Shown: positions 39,407 through 47,015 of the stretch, piece after piece | Numbering within the stretch: position 1 is the first letter of the stretch | Layout of the letters: each line of letters begins with the position of its first letter | DNA from: Phycisphaerales bacterium | GTDB taxonomy: Bacteria > Planctomycetota > Phycisphaerae > Phycisphaerales > SM1A02 | DNA: 47,015 nucleotides | Assembly (NCBI GenBank): GCA_009692045.1 | Contig: SIAA01000013.1 | Location: forward strand, 1 to 47,015 | Reading direction: 5' to 3' | The notes under the pieces: generated by a model | Told to the model about the DNA's origin: nothing | The model's input: only the letters and a program-made list of their open reading frames with translations | Database searches by the model: none | Program-made: the position numbers and the translations under genes

Positions 39407-42400
39407 ATGAGTCATCCACCATCGCCAGTCATGTCCCTGATAGTCGGCGGCATCATGCTGTTGACTGTGCCTTGGCAGGCAAGGGGACAGGAACTGTCGG
39501 CTGTAGTCGTGGACGATTCTCCCAGTGCCGCACAAATGCTCCGTCAGGCCATCGATCTGAGCGCCACCAATGCCCCGGAGAGTGCCCGTCTTTGCGGGCG
39601 TTTGCTGGCCGAGTTCGGTGACAGACTCATCGCGACCGAGGCGGATGACGACCTCTTCGTGCGAGCCTCGCGCCGTGCTGCCGAGTTTTTGGTGGCCAAC
39701 CGAACCGTGCGCGATCTTCTGAGGCAGCAACAGGAATCCGAGTCCAAGCGTCGCCTCACCCGCGGAGATCTGCTTTGGACTGCAGAGTGCGCCCCGCTAA
39801 CAGCAGCTGGTCTCGATGCGGCGCTGGCGCTGGGAGAACAGCAACTTTCCGATGCTCACTTTGAGCCGGCACGAGCTTGGTTGGCATCGGTCGAGGGGCA
39901 CCCTGACCTTCACGGTCGGCGTGCCATTGACCGGGCGCGGCTCATGGGGATTGCCATGTGGGGACTTGGTGATGATTCCGCAGTTGGTGCCCTGGCCGCC
40001 GAGCTCTCTGCCGCTGAAGGTGGGCTTGAGTCATCTCAACTGCTCTCACGACTGAGAGCGAGCACGCCGCCAAAGGAGCCTAGCCTCATCGATCCTCTGA
40101 GTCCGGGCGAGTTTGGCGTAGGTCTGCCCTCCGACCTGCACATTGTGTGGCGGGAGAGCATGGCGGGATCACTGACCACTCGACTGTTAGCCGGAGTCGA
40201 TCAGCTGGGATTCATGCGGGGCGCACTGGAAGATGCCCCCAACACAGGCGCGCTTCTGACGATGCTTCCGACCGCGACTCCAGATGCGGTGCTGGTGGAG
40301 GATGGCAATTCGCTGATGGCATTCGAGCGCGAAGCGCCGCGTCAGCAATGGCAGTCGCGCCTGACCATTCCCACCAACCTTCGATTGGAGGGTGGAGTTG
40401 GCGACTTGAATGCAGTGGTTGTCTGGGGAGAGAGCGCCTTCGCGATTGACGGGCACGCTGGCGCTACCGAGCGACTGGGCTCGGGCTCGCTGATCTGTGC
40501 TGATAAGAAAACGGGACGGATCTTGTGGGAAACGCAGCCTCCATCCACAGTTGAGCGGCGCGGCGGAGATTTCTTTTTCCACGGAGCGCCCGTGATTGCC
40601 GATGGCGTTGTGGCCGTTCAAGCGCGCAAGGTGAGCAGCAGACTTGAGACCACGAGCGCGCTTTTTGGATTTGCCACTGATGATGGCCGCCATCTGTGGA
40701 CAACGCAGCTCGGCTCGTGTGCCGGTACGCGCATGGCAACTCTGCGCCCGTTTTCATCGCCACTGCGTGTGGGGGGTGATGTGATAGTCAGCACGGCCTC
40801 GGGGACGCTGGCGAGAGTCGCTCTAGGCAGCGGTGTCATCTCCTGGATCCGCCGCGGTCTGGTTCCCGTGCAGGAACCGCGATACCCGGCGTTTCCCTGG
40901 GAGATGTCCCGTCCCATATTGCTGGCAGGCAGGGTGTTCTCGATGGGCGCTGATGGAGTGACGATCGAAGAGGTCAATCCTGACACCGGGGCGTTAGTAG
41001 AGCGGTTACCCATCGGACCTGGGGAGCCATCTGGGTCTGCGCGTTACTTGTTGGTGAGTCCAGCCTGTCAGACAGTTCTAGCAGTCGGAAGTGACATCGT
41101 CGCCTTCAATCCTGCCAGCCTTCGTGATCCGCTCTGGTCCCTCTCGACCTTGCTGGCAGGAAAGGGTCCCGATCCTCAAGATCGAGCGTGGTTGCGAGGG
41201 AGAGTGCAGACAGGAACGCTCGCTGACGGAACAGGTGCGCTGGTGATTCCACTCGATGACTCTGTAGAACTTCGAGTGGCTCGCACTGGTGTGCTGCTGG
41301 GCCGACTGGAGCAGGCCGGGCCGAAGAATCCGCTCCTTAGTAACGGTTCGCTGTTCCTGTCTCAGGGTGATGGGCTCCTAGCGGCCATGAGTCCAGAGGG
41401 CGCCGCCAAACTGCTTGCGGCGCGGGTTGACAACAATGAGAGGGACGCGGCCGCTTCAGTCGCGCTGGCAAGGTTTGCCATCGCGACCGATCGAAGTTCT
41501 CTGGTGATAGAGCGCCTCGACAAGCTCACTCAGGCAGTAGTCAACCATGGCTCGGAGATGGATCGACTGCAGCTCATGGAGGCGGCGTTGACATTGGCGC
41601 GAGGGTCGCAAGCTGCGCGCGACCGTGAGCGACTCGTTGCCGCTGCTCGCATTCTGGCCCCCGACACGGCCAGCCGGGCCCAAGTCACAATCGCTCAAGG
41701 TGAGTTGGAGTTGCTCTCGGGCGATCAAGAGGCTGCGGCCCAAGCATGGATCGAGGTGATTTCGAGTGCCGAGATGTCCTCGGTACTGGGTCGATGGGGA
41801 GAGGTGCTCAGGCGGGCCGACATTGAAGCGAGGGCCAGGCTTCGAGCGATAGGGAGAGGTGCGCAAGCGGGAGTCGATGAACTTTCGGTGCCGGCAGCGG
41901 CGCGAAAGTCGCGACGACTGCCCCGAGTGTGGGGCGAACCAGGGAGTCCGATCGAGATCGATGGTCGACTCCCGACCTACACCGAGCGCGCCGATGCAAC
42001 CCGTCCGATGGATGTATTTCTTGTCGCTGACGGTAGGTCTATGACCCTTCTGGATGCCGCGGATCTCTCGGAACGCTGGCGCGTTTCCGCCACAGATCGG
42101 CAGCCGACGATTCTCCGCACGGATGAGGAAATGGTTCTGATGTGGCAGGACACGGCGCAGGAGCGCCCCTCGGTGACGCGCATTGATCCCGCCTCCGGCG
42201 AGGTGGCATGGAGCCGCGCGACAGTAGCTGACTGCTTTCCGGCCGAAAAAACTGACCTCTTTACCAAGGGCGACTTGCCTTACTTCGGTGAGCCTCTTCG
42301 CATCGAGCCATTCGTAGGTGATGATGATCTGGCACTCGTGCGTGGCGATGGCCATGCGGCATTACTGCGTCTTAGTGATGGGGGGAAAGTCTGGGCCACC

Positions 42401-43198
42401 GCCAAACTGTTCGATCAGGTGACTGCGGTTGTCTCCGACAGGGATTACCTAGTGATGGCCGGTCGCCGAAACCGGGGCGAGAGCATCGAGACCTGTTTCG
42501 CGGTGATCGCCAGAGCTGACGGCAGGATCAGCGGTCCGACGTGCACTCTGGACGGTCAGGACATCAAGTGGCTGCTGCTGGAGCGAAATCGTTTGTTCCT
42601 GGGGACGGCCTTGGGGATCGAGTGCTATGACGCTTCCGCGGAGCCGGCTCTGATGTGGCGTAATGAGAGCGCCTCGGCGCGGCAGACCGACTACGCCCTG
42701 CTAGAGGGAACCAGCCTCGTGGTCTTGGGGCTGAACCAGTCAGTCAAGTCATTCAGCGAAACGACCGGTGATTATCAGGACGAGTTGTTTCAATCTGATC
42801 CCCCGAATGTTTTTCCGGGGCGACCATCACGGTCGATAGCGTCAGGCGCAGCAGGGGTGCTGGTGTTCGATCATGAGCGCCTTCGAGAGTTCAGCCCGGC
42901 AGGGGCTCTGATCGGTCAGGATTCGGTATCGGAGGACCATGTCTACCGGGCGGCGGTAGAACTAGACGGCAGCGTCCTCTTGGCGGCCGTTGCCCCGTCC
43001 GGGCAAGTTCTGGCCGAGGCTCGGGGCCGAGCTGCCGTGCGACTTTGGCGGTTTGACACGCCTTCGGGGATGAAACTGGCTCATGATTCGGTCGATGTAT
43101 CCCTCCCGCTTCCCATGGAATCCATCTCGGCGGTGGATGGGTGGGTACTGCTGGGGTTATCGGGTAAGGTCTCAGCCATCCCGTTTGTCCACAAGTGA
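39407..43198 (+). CDS. Large exported PQQ-like beta-propeller protein
   Basis: 1263 residues. Signal peptide at the start (SLIVGGIMLLTVPWQARGQ). Residues about 30-200 are helical, TPR-like (Ala/Glu/Arg-rich, LADAHFEPARAWLASVEG-type). Then come PQQ-type blades such as LICADKKTGRILWETQ, FATDDGRHLWTTQLGS, ATVADCF and IARADGRISGP, in two separate blocks (about 250-650 and 850-1260) with a helical linker between. So it probably has two propellers, like BamB-type and PQQ repeat proteins that act as scaffolds rather than dehydrogenases. No PQQ or metal site was recognised. Function unknown; planctomycetes hold many such proteins. Confidence 0.78.
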   Translation: MSHPPSPVMSLIVGGIMLLTVPWQARGQELSAVVVDDSPSAAQMLRQAIDLSATNAPESARLCGRLLAEFGDRLIATEADDDLFVRASRRAAEFLVANRTVRDLLRQQQESESKRRLTRGDLLWTAECAPLTAAGLDAALALGEQQLSDAHFEPARAWLASVEGHPDLHGRRAIDRARLMGIAMWGLGDDSAVGALAAELSAAEGGLESSQLLSRLRASTPPKEPSLIDPLSPGEFGVGLPSDLHIVWRESMAGSLTTRLLAGVDQLGFMRGALEDAPNTGALLTMLPTATPDAVLVEDGNSLMAFEREAPRQQWQSRLTIPTNLRLEGGVGDLNAVVVWGESAFAIDGHAGATERLGSGSLICADKKTGRILWETQPPSTVERRGGDFFFHGAPVIADGVVAVQARKVSSRLETTSALFGFATDDGRHLWTTQLGSCAGTRMATLRPFSSPLRVGGDVIVSTASGTLARVALGSGVISWIRRGLVPVQEPRYPAFPWEMSRPILLAGRVFSMGADGVTIEEVNPDTGALVERLPIGPGEPSGSARYLLVSPACQTVLAVGSDIVAFNPASLRDPLWSLSTLLAGKGPDPQDRAWLRGRVQTGTLADGTGALVIPLDDSVELRVARTGVLLGRLEQAGPKNPLLSNGSLFLSQGDGLLAAMSPEGAAKLLAARVDNNERDAAASVALARFAIATDRSSLVIERLDKLTQAVVNHGSEMDRLQLMEAALTLARGSQAARDRERLVAAARILAPDTASRAQVTIAQGELELLSGDQEAAAQAWIEVISSAEMSSVLGRWGEVLRRADIEARARLRAIGRGAQAGVDELSVPAAARKSRRLPRVWGEPGSPIEIDGRLPTYTERADATRPMDVFLVADGRSMTLLDAADLSERWRVSATDRQPTILRTDEEMVLMWQDTAQERPSVTRIDPASGEVAWSRATVADCFPAEKTDLFTKGDLPYFGEPLRIEPFVGDDDLALVRGDGHAALLRLSDGGKVWATAKLFDQVTAVVSDRDYLVMAGRRNRGESIETCFAVIARADGRISGPTCTLDGQDIKWLLLERNRLFLGTALGIECYDASAEPALMWRNESASARQTDYALLEGTSLVVLGLNQSVKSFSETTGDYQDELFQSDPPNVFPGRPSRSIASGAAGVLVFDHERLREFSPAGALIGQDSVSEDHVYRAAVELDGSVLLAAVAPSGQVLAEARGRAAVRLWRFDTPSGMKLAHDSVDVSLPLPMESISAVDGWVLLGLSGKVSAIPFVHK

Positions 43199-43255
43199 GG
43201 TTGACAGCAGAGCCTCCAGCGAGGATATTCCCTCCCCGTAGTAATGGGAGCCCAA

Positions 43256-43516
43256 ATGGCAGTGATCCTCATCGATATCGACGAACTCAACCGACTATCA
43301 CATCAACTCACGCTGGGAGCGAAGGGTGACCCTACGCCTGGAGGCGAGGAGGACGGAATCGACGACGATGATTTCGACGATGACGATGATGAAGAAGATG
43401 ACGATGATGACGATGATGAGGAGGACGCCGACAGCGAGTTCGAGGACGCTGACGACGAGCTTGACGATGATGACGATGACGACATCGAGATCGACGACGA
43501 TGCCGCTGATGAATAG
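43256..43516 (+). CDS. Small polyacidic protein
   Basis: 86 residues from ATG 43256, which has GGGAG six bases before it (ATG 43244 is also in frame). Only the first 30 residues are of normal composition (MAVILIDIDELNRLSHQLT, probably a short helix); the rest is almost all Asp and Glu. The codons mix GAT/GAC/GAA/GAG, so it is not one simple DNA repeat. It lies 57 bases after the PQQ gene and on the same strand. From base 43303 it is the exact antisense of the minus-strand lipoprotein's tail, so one of the two may be spurious here. A metal-, cation- or nucleic-acid-mimic role would be guesswork. Confidence 0.6.
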   Translation: MAVILIDIDELNRLSHQLTLGAKGDPTPGGEEDGIDDDDFDDDDDEEDDDDDDDEEDADSEFEDADDELDDDDDDDIEIDDDAADE

Positions 43517-44709
43517 TCATCGCTCATCTGAATGATGGCGAACTCGAACTGCCCTTCCACTGGAGAAAACAGGAGGGCGCGGCCATCAGCTCCAGCGCAC
43601 AGTGGCACCCACTGTCCCGAAACGATTACCGTGCTGTCAATGCCGAGTGACTCGTCTTGGGAATAGACGAGCCGGTCATTCATCAGCAGTAGGTCATTGC
43701 CGGCGGCGAGTCGAAGAGCGCTTTCAGAACCAGTAGCAAAGTGCCGCGTTGAGTGGCGGAGAGGATCCCACTCCAGAAGGCCAGAGTGTGGTGTGGCCAG
43801 CAGGAAGGCACTGGGGCCGCGCCTGGCGCTTGATCCCAGCGGTACACAGGCGTGATATGCGGTGCGTACGGTGGCGCGATCGCTTAGGCGAAACCCGACA
43901 GCGCGTGCCAACAATTCCTCCGGCGTCGCTTGCGTGGAGGCGGTATCCACCCAGAGGGCATCCAACACACCATCTCGAAGTTGCATCATGCAAACCCCTT
44001 CTCCGCCCTGGGCCCAAGTGGGAGCGAGAAGTGCGCCGCCATCGGGAGGCAGAAACACCCGTTCGTTCTGCCCTTGGCGTACCACGACTTCCATCGAACT
44101 GTTTCGAGTTGAGGCGCCTGGGAGTGGGGCCGAAGATTGTGGTCGGATCCGTGACCAGCAGAGTGAGCCGTCAACTCCCAGCGCGGCGAGAGCATTGAAG
44201 GCGTTGTCCTGTACCAGCCACTTGGGTTCCCGTGTTTGCCAATCGACCATACCGATCCAGCGCGAGCCGTCCGGATTTGACCGCTCCACCAAGAACCCTT
44301 GAGCATCAGCGAACCGGCCGAGCAGCAGATTCGCGGGAGCGACTCCAAGGAATGTGATGTCAGTCTTGCCGACTTGGTACACCGAAACAGTTCCGATGGA
44401 GAGGGGGGCAATGCGGGCAGTTCCCCCGGAATCCTCGAGTCCGGTGCGATCCGACCACTTGCAGTTGCTCGTGGTCTGAACCGCGATAAAGCGCAAGTCG
44501 GGAGAAGCTAGAGGAGGAGTGAATCGGTCATAGGCAGCAGCGCCAATGCGCGCAACAGAGAATGAGAGATGCTTGGTTGGCAGGGGGGCTGCCGGTGTTG
44601 GCGGTGCCGAGGCCCGCGAGGCCTCGTTACTTCTGCGAGGCGGGGAACTGCATGCCGAGCCCAGAACAAGGGCAATCAGTGATGCGGCAGATAGTCCCCG
44701 CAAGATCAT
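43303..44709 (-). CDS. Probable lipoprotein, propeller-like, with Ser-rich tail
   Basis: 468 residues. The head GLSAASLIALVLGSACSS is a signal peptide with a weak lipobox (Gly at -3 rather than Leu). A Pro/Ala spacer follows, then a beta-rich body of about 350 residues with repeated strand patterns (SPDLRFIAVQ, VSVYQVGK, GSRWIGMVDWQTREP), consistent with a beta-propeller. No enzyme motif. The last 70 residues are almost pure Ser and are antisense to the polyacidic gene; the body without them looks complete, so the real stop may be functionally unimportant. The gene starts four bases inside the secretin stop (ATGA), so it probably works with the secretin, perhaps as a pilotin-like or accessory lipoprotein (inference). 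Confidence 0.7.
   Translation of the reverse strand: MILRGLSAASLIALVLGSACSSPPRRSNEASRASAPPTPAAPLPTKHLSFSVARIGAAAYDRFTPPLASPDLRFIAVQTTSNCKWSDRTGLEDSGGTARIAPLSIGTVSVYQVGKTDITFLGVAPANLLLGRFADAQGFLVERSNPDGSRWIGMVDWQTREPKWLVQDNAFNALAALGVDGSLCWSRIRPQSSAPLPGASTRNSSMEVVVRQGQNERVFLPPDGGALLAPTWAQGGEGVCMMQLRDGVLDALWVDTASTQATPEELLARAVGFRLSDRATVRTAYHACVPLGSSARRGPSAFLLATPHSGLLEWDPLRHSTRHFATGSESALRLAAGNDLLLMNDRLVYSQDESLGIDSTVIVSGQWVPLCAGADGRALLFSPVEGQFEFAIIQMSDDYSSAASSSISMSSSSSSSSSSSASSNSLSASSSSSSSSSSSSSSSSSKSSSSIPSSSPPGVGSPFAPSVS
43355..43512. repeat. Low-complexity GAN codon tract
   Basis: About 158 bases of GAC/GAT/GAA/GAG codons read as Asp/Glu on plus and, in the antisense phase, as TCN serine codons on minus. 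Because every GAN triplet gives TCN on the other strand, either reading stays low in complexity whatever the third base. Confidence 0.85.
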
Positions 44710-47015
44710 GGCGCCGCAGGTTCAACTGCAGGCGGTGACTCGTGGCTCTGCTGCGCCTTGTCTCCCGGAGCAGTGATCGGTGCTATCGGTGCCTTGGTAC
44801 CGGGACGGGGAGTGGGTACCAGCCCGCGCTTCTGCTGCCGCTGCAGCATGGCATCGCTCGACTCAGCCAGGGGGCGAGTAAGCGAGCGGAGGCGCTCCAG
44901 CTCCTCCACATTGAAGTTGTTGTCATTGGCATCAGGGTTCTCGATCACAATCGGAGTGATGAAGATCAAGAGCTCTTTGGCGAATGTCGTCTTCTCTTTG
45001 CTGGAGAAGATGAGATCGAGAATGGGAATGTCCCCGAGGATCGGGAACCCAGTTTTGTCGCTGGCTTCATTCTCGATGCGGATTCCCGAGATGAGGATGG
45101 TCTGCCCGTCCTTTACCGTGATCGTGGTGTTTGTCTGCCGGCGATCGATGACGGGGTTGTTACCCACGCCCAGTGGAGTCGTGCTATTGGTGTTGGAGAG
45201 AAGAACTTCGATTTCCATGGCGACATTTCCGTCTACCGTTATGCGCGGCCGCACATTCACTCCGATTCCCACGGCAATCTGCTCGAAGCTGGAAACCGTT
45301 GAGCCGCCCGTAGTTGATCCCTGCGACTGCGACGCCTGGAACGGAATGTCCTGTCCCTGGAAGAAAATGGCCTCCTTATTGTCGCTGGTCACGATGCGGG
45401 GCTGTTGCAGGATTCTCACGGCGGTGTCCTGATCAAGTGCCTGCAGCACAACCGTGGCATCCACTGCAAAGTCGAAGAGGAAGGCGTTGAATTCTTCGGG
45501 GAAGTCGGTGTCCCGAACTCCGTCAACATTAGTTCCGATTACCACGGCGTTATTTTGGTTGGCGGGCTTCACCGAGCCATCGGGGCCGAATCGCACGCCG
45601 TACTGCAACTGCTCACCCAGCTCGACCTCTGCAAGGATGGCCTCAATCATCACCTGACGGTCGGGCTTGTCCATCTGATTGATGAGAGAGATCAGTGACT
45701 CCTGAATCTCGGGAGGCGCCAGTACCAGTACCGAGTTCTGCGAAGCATTGGGCACCACTCGTGCCTTACCCACCAGGGCGCTCGGCTCGCGCTGAGTCGC
45801 TTCACCGCCTGCTCCTCTGCCACTCTGCCAGGGGAACTCGATAGTTGCGCCTTGCGCACGATCTTCCGTCGAACCGCCACCACTCGTGTCACCTGTGCCG
45901 CCACCAGCCGCTTGGAAATCGATTCCTGAAAGTCCCTGATCCGGAGCGGTGATGGTGGCGCCAGAACCAGCCTCGGCGAGAAGAGCATTCACGATCTCAG
46001 CGAGCTCGACACAGTTCTGATACTTCAGAGGTATCGAAATGGGCAGCCCGGCGTTGAGCGGCTGATCGATGCGGGCGATGACATCATCCAGCCAGCGGAA
46101 GTTGTCCGGGGTCTTCGTTACCACGATCAGTCGGTTGGAGTCAGGGTAAGCCTCGATCATGAAGATGTTGGCAACCGCCGCATCGGCTCCAGAATCACCG
46201 CCACCGCCCTGCAGCACCACGCGATTGGAGCCGCCGCGATTGCCGCCGGAGGTGGCACCACCGCTGGATCCCAGCAGCGTCCCTAGCAGTTCTTTCACCT
46301 TGAGCGGATCGGCATACTTCAGGTCATAAATACGGAATGGGTCGCCATCCACATTGATGGGAATGTCCCATTCTGTGTGAATGAGATTGCGAATCTCGCC
46401 CAGAATCTCCGGCTCGGCCCGCACGGTAACCGAGTTCGCTGATGGTTGAGTCGTTACTACCAGTTGCTCGCTTGTCCCCACGGCCTGCGCTTCGGCTGGT
46501 TGCCCTGCCTGCTGGGCGCGCCCTCCGCGGCTCTGTTGATTGGTGCGATTGCCTCCTGAGGATCCGGAACGAGTCGAGCCGAAGAGGGTGGAGATGTTGT
46601 CGGCCACCTGTTGAGCATCGGTGAATTCCAGGCGAAATGTCTCGGTGAGAACATCTACATAAGGCGGCACATCAAGCAGGTCGATGAGTGCCTGACAGCG
46701 TTTGGCCAATCCGGCATCACCCTCAAGAATGATCTGATTGGAGTTGCCGTCAACTTCGATGCGCGCGTACTCGGGAAGATTGGCGGAGAGTCGATCAAAG
46801 ATGCCCGTTGCCTTGGTGTTCTTTATCTTGTAAACCTTGATTACGACCTGACCCAGATCAGCCATCCGGCTGAGATCCACATCGGGCCCGAGCACGAGTG
46901 CGGGCTGAAGTGTCGTCAATGAAGTGATCAGATCAATCATGATCAGATCATCTGTCTCAACTACACCAAGTCCGTTGATGCGAAACGCTTGGAAGATCAG
47001 TTCCAAAGCTTTCTG
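44706..47015 (-). CDS. Secretin (GspD/PilQ superfamily), N-terminus cut by window edge
   Basis: More than 766 residues are visible and the frame runs open through base 47015 (QKALELIF before the first TTG), so the true start lies outside. Several N-type ring domains come first (for example TFRLEFTDAQQVADNISTLF, YDLKYADPLKVKELLGTLL, IPLKYQNCVELAEIVNALL), separated by Gly/Gln/Ser-rich linkers (GGNRGGSNR, GGGGDSG, QAAGGGTGDTSGGG). Then comes the secretin core: VLVLAPPEIQESLISLINQM, VMIEAILAEVELGEQLQYGV and the signature VKDGQTILISGIRIEN with GFPILGDIPILDLIFSS and ELLIFITPIVI. It forms the outer membrane channel of type II secretion or type IV pili. No gspE/F/G lies within view. The downstream lipoprotein overlaps its stop. 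Confidence 0.93.
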   Translation of the reverse strand, partial: QKALELIFQAFRINGLGVVETDDLIMIDLITSLTTLQPALVLGPDVDLSRMADLGQVVIKVYKIKNTKATGIFDRLSANLPEYARIEVDGNSNQIILEGDAGLAKRCQALIDLLDVPPYVDVLTETFRLEFTDAQQVADNISTLFGSTRSGSSGGNRTNQQSRGGRAQQAGQPAEAQAVGTSEQLVVTTQPSANSVTVRAEPEILGEIRNLIHTEWDIPINVDGDPFRIYDLKYADPLKVKELLGTLLGSSGGATSGGNRGGSNRVVLQGGGGDSGADAAVANIFMIEAYPDSNRLIVVTKTPDNFRWLDDVIARIDQPLNAGLPISIPLKYQNCVELAEIVNALLAEAGSGATITAPDQGLSGIDFQAAGGGTGDTSGGGSTEDRAQGATIEFPWQSGRGAGGEATQREPSALVGKARVVPNASQNSVLVLAPPEIQESLISLINQMDKPDRQVMIEAILAEVELGEQLQYGVRFGPDGSVKPANQNNAVVIGTNVDGVRDTDFPEEFNAFLFDFAVDATVVLQALDQDTAVRILQQPRIVTSDNKEAIFFQGQDIPFQASQSQGSTTGGSTVSSFEQIAVGIGVNVRPRITVDGNVAMEIEVLLSNTNSTTPLGVGNNPVIDRRQTNTTITVKDGQTILISGIRIENEASDKTGFPILGDIPILDLIFSSKEKTTFAKELLIFITPIVIENPDANDNNFNVEELERLRSLTRPLAESSDAMLQRQQKRGLVPTPRPGTKAPIAPITAPGDKAQQSHESPPAVEPAAP

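Follow-up and report, generated by a model that had tools for sequence, protein, structure and literature searches.

Convergent genes can come to overlap when one of them loses its stop codon and is extended at its 3' end, which is a published origin of such overlaps (Palleja et al., 2008, PMC2478687; PMC2174442). Convergent overlaps over 60 nt are rare and restricted to few species (PMC2478687); phase 123:213 has been reported as the rarest convergent phase (18%), and a stop codon mutation model expects 27% of it for E. coli (PMC2174442). The locus that we describe here is of the same kind as these long overlaps, a 3'-end extension after stop loss (PMC2478687); however, the overlapped gene is polyacidic and stop-free antisense, so that the extension becomes a long, homopolymer-like serine tail, and at least three changes have occurred at one locus, all of them in phase 123:213. 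Convergent overlap by stop loss is a known process, and it is the outcome and the repeated origin that are unusual here. Antiparallel coding frames on the same bases are also found in E. coli O157:H7 laoB (PMC5810103) and in a further report (PMC9927249); those frames are described as overprinted or as new in antisense, and as supported by transcriptome or ribosome-profiling data, whereas here an existing gene is extended, no new gene arises, and the case is known from sequence alone. Our literature search, which covered antisense pairs of polyserine and polyaspartate as well as acidic proteins of planctomycetes, found nothing relevant.

The features of the locus are given below in coordinates of the window, that is, the whole stretch of 47,015 nucleotides that was analysed, whose source genome comprises 2.17 Mb in 74 contigs.

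39407..43198, plus strand: PQQ/BamB-type beta-propeller gene, upstream of the acidic gene (PF13360, 4.9e-23; syntenic)
43201..43229, plus strand: promoter of sigma-70 type for the acidic gene, TTGACA-17-GATATT (agrees with the consensus at 10 of 12 positions)
43256..43516, plus strand: gene for the acidic protein of 86 aa, with a second possible ATG at 43244 (location and composition shared by 77 family genomes)
43346..43513, plus strand: Asp/Glu tract of GAN codons (from the sequence)
43511..43516, plus strand: junction GAA-TAG of the acidic gene, read as TAT (Tyr) on the minus strand (comparison with relatives that have a 4-nt overlap)
43303..43516, minus strand: Ser-rich C-terminal extension of the lipoprotein, identical with the overlap and antisense to the acidic gene (Ser content)
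43303..44709, minus strand: lipoprotein gene, 468 aa, beta-propeller-like, lipobox Cys20 (alignment of relatives, AlphaFold2 model)
44706..47006, minus strand: gene for a type II secretion secretin, lying upstream of the lipoprotein gene (PF00263, 3.4e-44; syntenic)

The overlap between the plus frame (43256-43516) and the minus frame (43303-44709) measures 214 nt (43303-43516) and runs from the minus stop codon at 43303-43305 to the plus stop codon at 43514-43516. Within this overlap, 45 of 70 plus codons encode Asp or Glu and 48 of 70 minus codons encode Ser; the first ~43 nt (43303-43345) are not acidic. The phase is 123:213 (plus position 3 opposite minus 3, plus 1 opposite 2, plus 2 opposite 1), and since the third codon positions thus face each other, GAN (Asp/Glu) on the plus strand reads TCN (Ser) on the minus strand. 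An antiparallel Asp/Glu-versus-Ser overlap of about 214 bases, with coincident third positions and a wobble shared between the strands, had been described in an initial sequence-only reading of this DNA, and both descriptions are borne out.

The gene order around the overlap is conserved: PQQ beta-propeller (+), acidic small protein (+), lipoprotein (-), secretin (-). GTDB relatives with this block are labelled as Phycisphaerales or as other Planctomycetota MAGs, and in one of them a GspK-like gene lies upstream of the secretin (T2SSK just below the Pfam cut-off). Searching relatives directly with the acidic protein was unsuccessful, probably due to low complexity, and synteny was used instead: the propeller and the lipoprotein were searched through the family, and the DNA between them was then read. 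The lipoprotein alignment held no conserved stretch for locus search, and the secretin alignment was used. For propeller homologs from further families within the order (G339, G318, G315, G256, G293, G226), the stretch examined contained neither an acidic gene nor the lipoprotein.

Several lines of evidence bear on whether the plus-strand gene is real. Its likely start is ATG 43256 rather than 43244, with GGGAG 5 nt upstream, and its promoter, which begins 3 nt past the propeller stop codon, is the sole promoter match within 43150-43650; the same promoter stands upstream of the acidic gene in G001, the window's genus-mate, and in many g42 and g39 genomes. Across relatives the protein consists of a variable N-terminus of ~25-50 residues followed by an acidic tract, the window copy lying at the short end of the size range, and the gene keeps its own stop in the 73 relatives that have no overlap or a 4-nt overlap. 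Conservation, position and promoter therefore support the plus gene as real, as first read, and from sequence it appears to be old within this Phycisphaerales family and to be transcribed on its own. Its presence in relatives that lack the long overlap indicates that it is older than the overlap.

The minus-strand gene encodes a protein with a lipobox (LGSAC) after a signal peptide, and Cys20 is invariant in alignments of relatives. Neither Pfam nor NCBIfam returned a family for it; the AlphaFold2 model is all-beta (pLDDT 81), and the PDB structures that match it best are propellers of the WD40, S9 peptidase and TolB types, all of them weak matches (TM-scores about 0.3-0.57). The last long strand of the model comprises residues 387-396, and the predicted fold ends at 396-398, where the overlap begins. 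Residues 400-468, which correspond to the overlap, have low confidence (mostly <50) and are predicted to be disordered. Homology in the alignment likewise ends with the last beta strand (FEFAIIQM in the window), at the start of the overlap; by homology end, predicted fold end and the stops of relatives, the lipoprotein exceeds its orthologs by exactly the overlap. As a separate observation, a conserved lipoprotein that follows the secretin could belong to a type II secretion system as an accessory component.

To place the overlap among relatives, we counted the 77 family (Phycisphaerales) genomes in which both the acidic gene and the convergent lipoprotein were readable. In 70 genomes 0-310 nt separate the lipoprotein end from the acidic stop, in three the two genes overlap by 4 nt (G048, G043 and G105; both stops are TAG, on CTAG), and only four carry a long overlap (214 nt in the window, 88 in G001, 49 in G015 and 94 in G038). 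G001 belongs with the window to genus g1, and G015 and G038 are one genome each of two other genera; G132, which shares genus g38 with G038, has a normal stop, a gap of 54 nt and no tail. A second pass through GTDB contigs, many from the same genomes, gave the same picture in 59 pairs. Thus a lipoprotein stop before the acidic gene, which the sequence-only reading had named as its refuting observation, is found in 73 of 77 genomes when the three with a 4-nt overlap are included. In a tree built on the lipoprotein without its tail, the long overlap takes at least three changes (genus g1, G015 and G038), for which separate gains are the natural reading, as one gain plus two losses would demand many tail losses elsewhere. 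Conservation of the overlap between species, with selection acting on either frame alike, is not what the genomes show: four of 77 carry it, after at least three changes. The family thereby offers a clean natural experiment on the origin of a C-terminal tail, in which one convergent pair is seen in many genomes in its ancestral state, as 4-nt intermediates and with long extensions of at least three separate origins. The G001 MAG carries the lipoprotein 3' end together with the acidic gene in two diverged versions (C156, loci L127 and L130; C270, locus L128), which are probably strain variants; the two contigs differ by two in-frame GAN codons in the tract, so tail and tract change length together.

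The length and composition of the tail follow from the acidic tract. The reverse complement of GAN codons is stop-free in every frame, and a new tail can consequently be as long as the acidic tract allows; phase 123:213 makes it polyserine. In the Ser phase, only plus NNY-TAN (Tyr or stop) and NNT-CAN (His/Gln) can give a stop on the minus strand. A Tyr codon of the acidic gene (GAC-TAC or ACC-TAC) ends each of the tails in G001, G015 and G038; the acidic protein of the window has no Tyr, and its tail therefore leaves the tract and ends at CAT-CAA (43301-43306). The plus strand also sets the serine codons of the tail, of which 45 are TCN and three AGY, against 35% AGY in 11 other genes of the window (p 5e-6). 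We considered the open minus frame itself as evidence of coding and rejected it: the acidic genes of relatives are open antisense in all three phases (median 104-139 codons), and in two phases the secretin 3' ends come close to the same openness. In the 4-nt overlaps a pyrimidine precedes the plus TAG and creates the minus TAG stop, and in the window GAA-TAG gives minus TAT instead. Judged from these codons, a tail in the Ser phase can be opened by one base change in the final wobble position of the acidic gene, and the window tail may have been opened in this way; the exact stop-loss mutation is not reconstructable, as the lipoproteins of the window and G001 are only about 35% identical.

We reasoned that the tail would most simply be a late addition. 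In the ancestral state the convergent lipoprotein would have ended before the acidic gene; its stop codon and the intergenic spacer would then have been lost in the window's genus, and translation, if the mRNA extends so far, would run antisense through the acidic gene to the first minus-strand stop, with the stop-free acidic tract determining tail length and phase 123:213 making the tail polyserine. Such an addition after loss of stop and spacer is what the coincidence of predicted fold end, homology end and overlap start points to, and we hold it very probable that an old acidic gene was read antisense in this way. On this evidence the C-terminal extension is recent and came about through loss of the stop or of intergenic sequence, and the two frames are not an ancient designed pair; of the two origins initially offered, a real overlapping pair or loss of the minus-strand stop, the latter is supported (73 of 77 relatives end before the acidic stop or at 4 nt), and a long-standing co-evolved pair (four of 77) is not. 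Both frames may be translated today, and the tail is presumably translated, soluble and tolerated rather than functional.

A selected tail, for example a flexible or modified C-terminal stalk in a functional overlapping pair whose shared wobble maintains both compositions, seems unlikely to us, and the evidence does not all run one way. The tail is present in both members of the window's genus despite their low lipoprotein identity, and all of the tree changes, at least three, fall in the Ser phase, in which only 15 of 70 gapped pairs lie. Against this, 73 of 77 genomes lack a tail, among them the genus-mate of G038, tail lengths vary widely (about 12 to 70 residues, in three cases fixed by where the acidic gene has its first Tyr codon), the serine codons are dictated by the plus strand, and the tail is predicted to be disordered. 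Still less probable is an assembly or sequencing error, in which a one-base indel near 43517-43530 would conceal the true lipoprotein stop at 43517 or 43524: stops in both other minus frames do lie only a few bases from where the folded domain ends, and the window is a single MAG, but these positions hold no homopolymer run that would favour an error, and the same kind of tail in the independent assemblies of G001 (two contigs), G015 and G038 makes error unlikely as a general explanation. The converse idea is that selection acted on a Ser-rich tail and that the acidic frame, rather than being a gene, results from it mechanically. This idea draws on the fact that GAN and TCN are the same bases and either frame could drive the other; its probability is close to nil, and it is refuted by the relatives, as 73 genomes have the acidic gene beside a lipoprotein that stops before it or at 4 nt. 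AGY serines, moreover, are almost missing from the tail.

The shared phase of the long overlaps calls for comment. The chance that three independent origins all fall in the Ser phase is 0.037 at equal phases, 0.02 at the 27% of the stop codon mutation model (PMC2174442) and ~0.01 at the 21% of gapped pairs, in a test that is post hoc and small (three origins); the 4-nt overlaps add no phase evidence because their Ser phase is set by geometry. The other two phases would give tails rich in Val/Leu/Ile/Phe or in Arg/His/Pro/Leu, and the figures are suggestive of a filter against them, by which such tails would have been purged. More broadly, it is conceivable, if doubtful, that polyacidic genes are stop-free landing strips for convergent neighbours, that selection keeps only read-through in the polyserine phase, and that Ser-rich tails thus recur and can become functional. 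The comparison suggests a simple rule, in which Asp/Glu codons are stop-free antisense, the phase picks a Ser, hydrophobic or Arg/Pro tail, and a Tyr codon of the acidic gene ends it.

The finding further draws attention to a conserved acidic protein, as yet uncharacterised, that is encoded next to a type II secretion secretin. The protein had no family match in Pfam or NCBIfam, and such a family is retained beside the secretin, lipoprotein and propeller block in 77 genomes. From its position, its promoter and the lack of a signal peptide, we speculate that it may be a well-expressed cytoplasmic polyanion. A motif like DDFGDEEFGDEDGF recurs in the acidic proteins of several genera. In genus g42 a long poly-Asp run is followed by a Lys/Ala-rich stretch (KKAKKAKKAKKAKEAL...), with DDDDIEE.DI as a frequent end; poly-Asp followed by the Lys/Ala-rich stretch is seen at L090:87-680, L092, L104, L106, L108, L109 and L124, and this arrangement of a polyanion and then a basic tail recalls histone H1.
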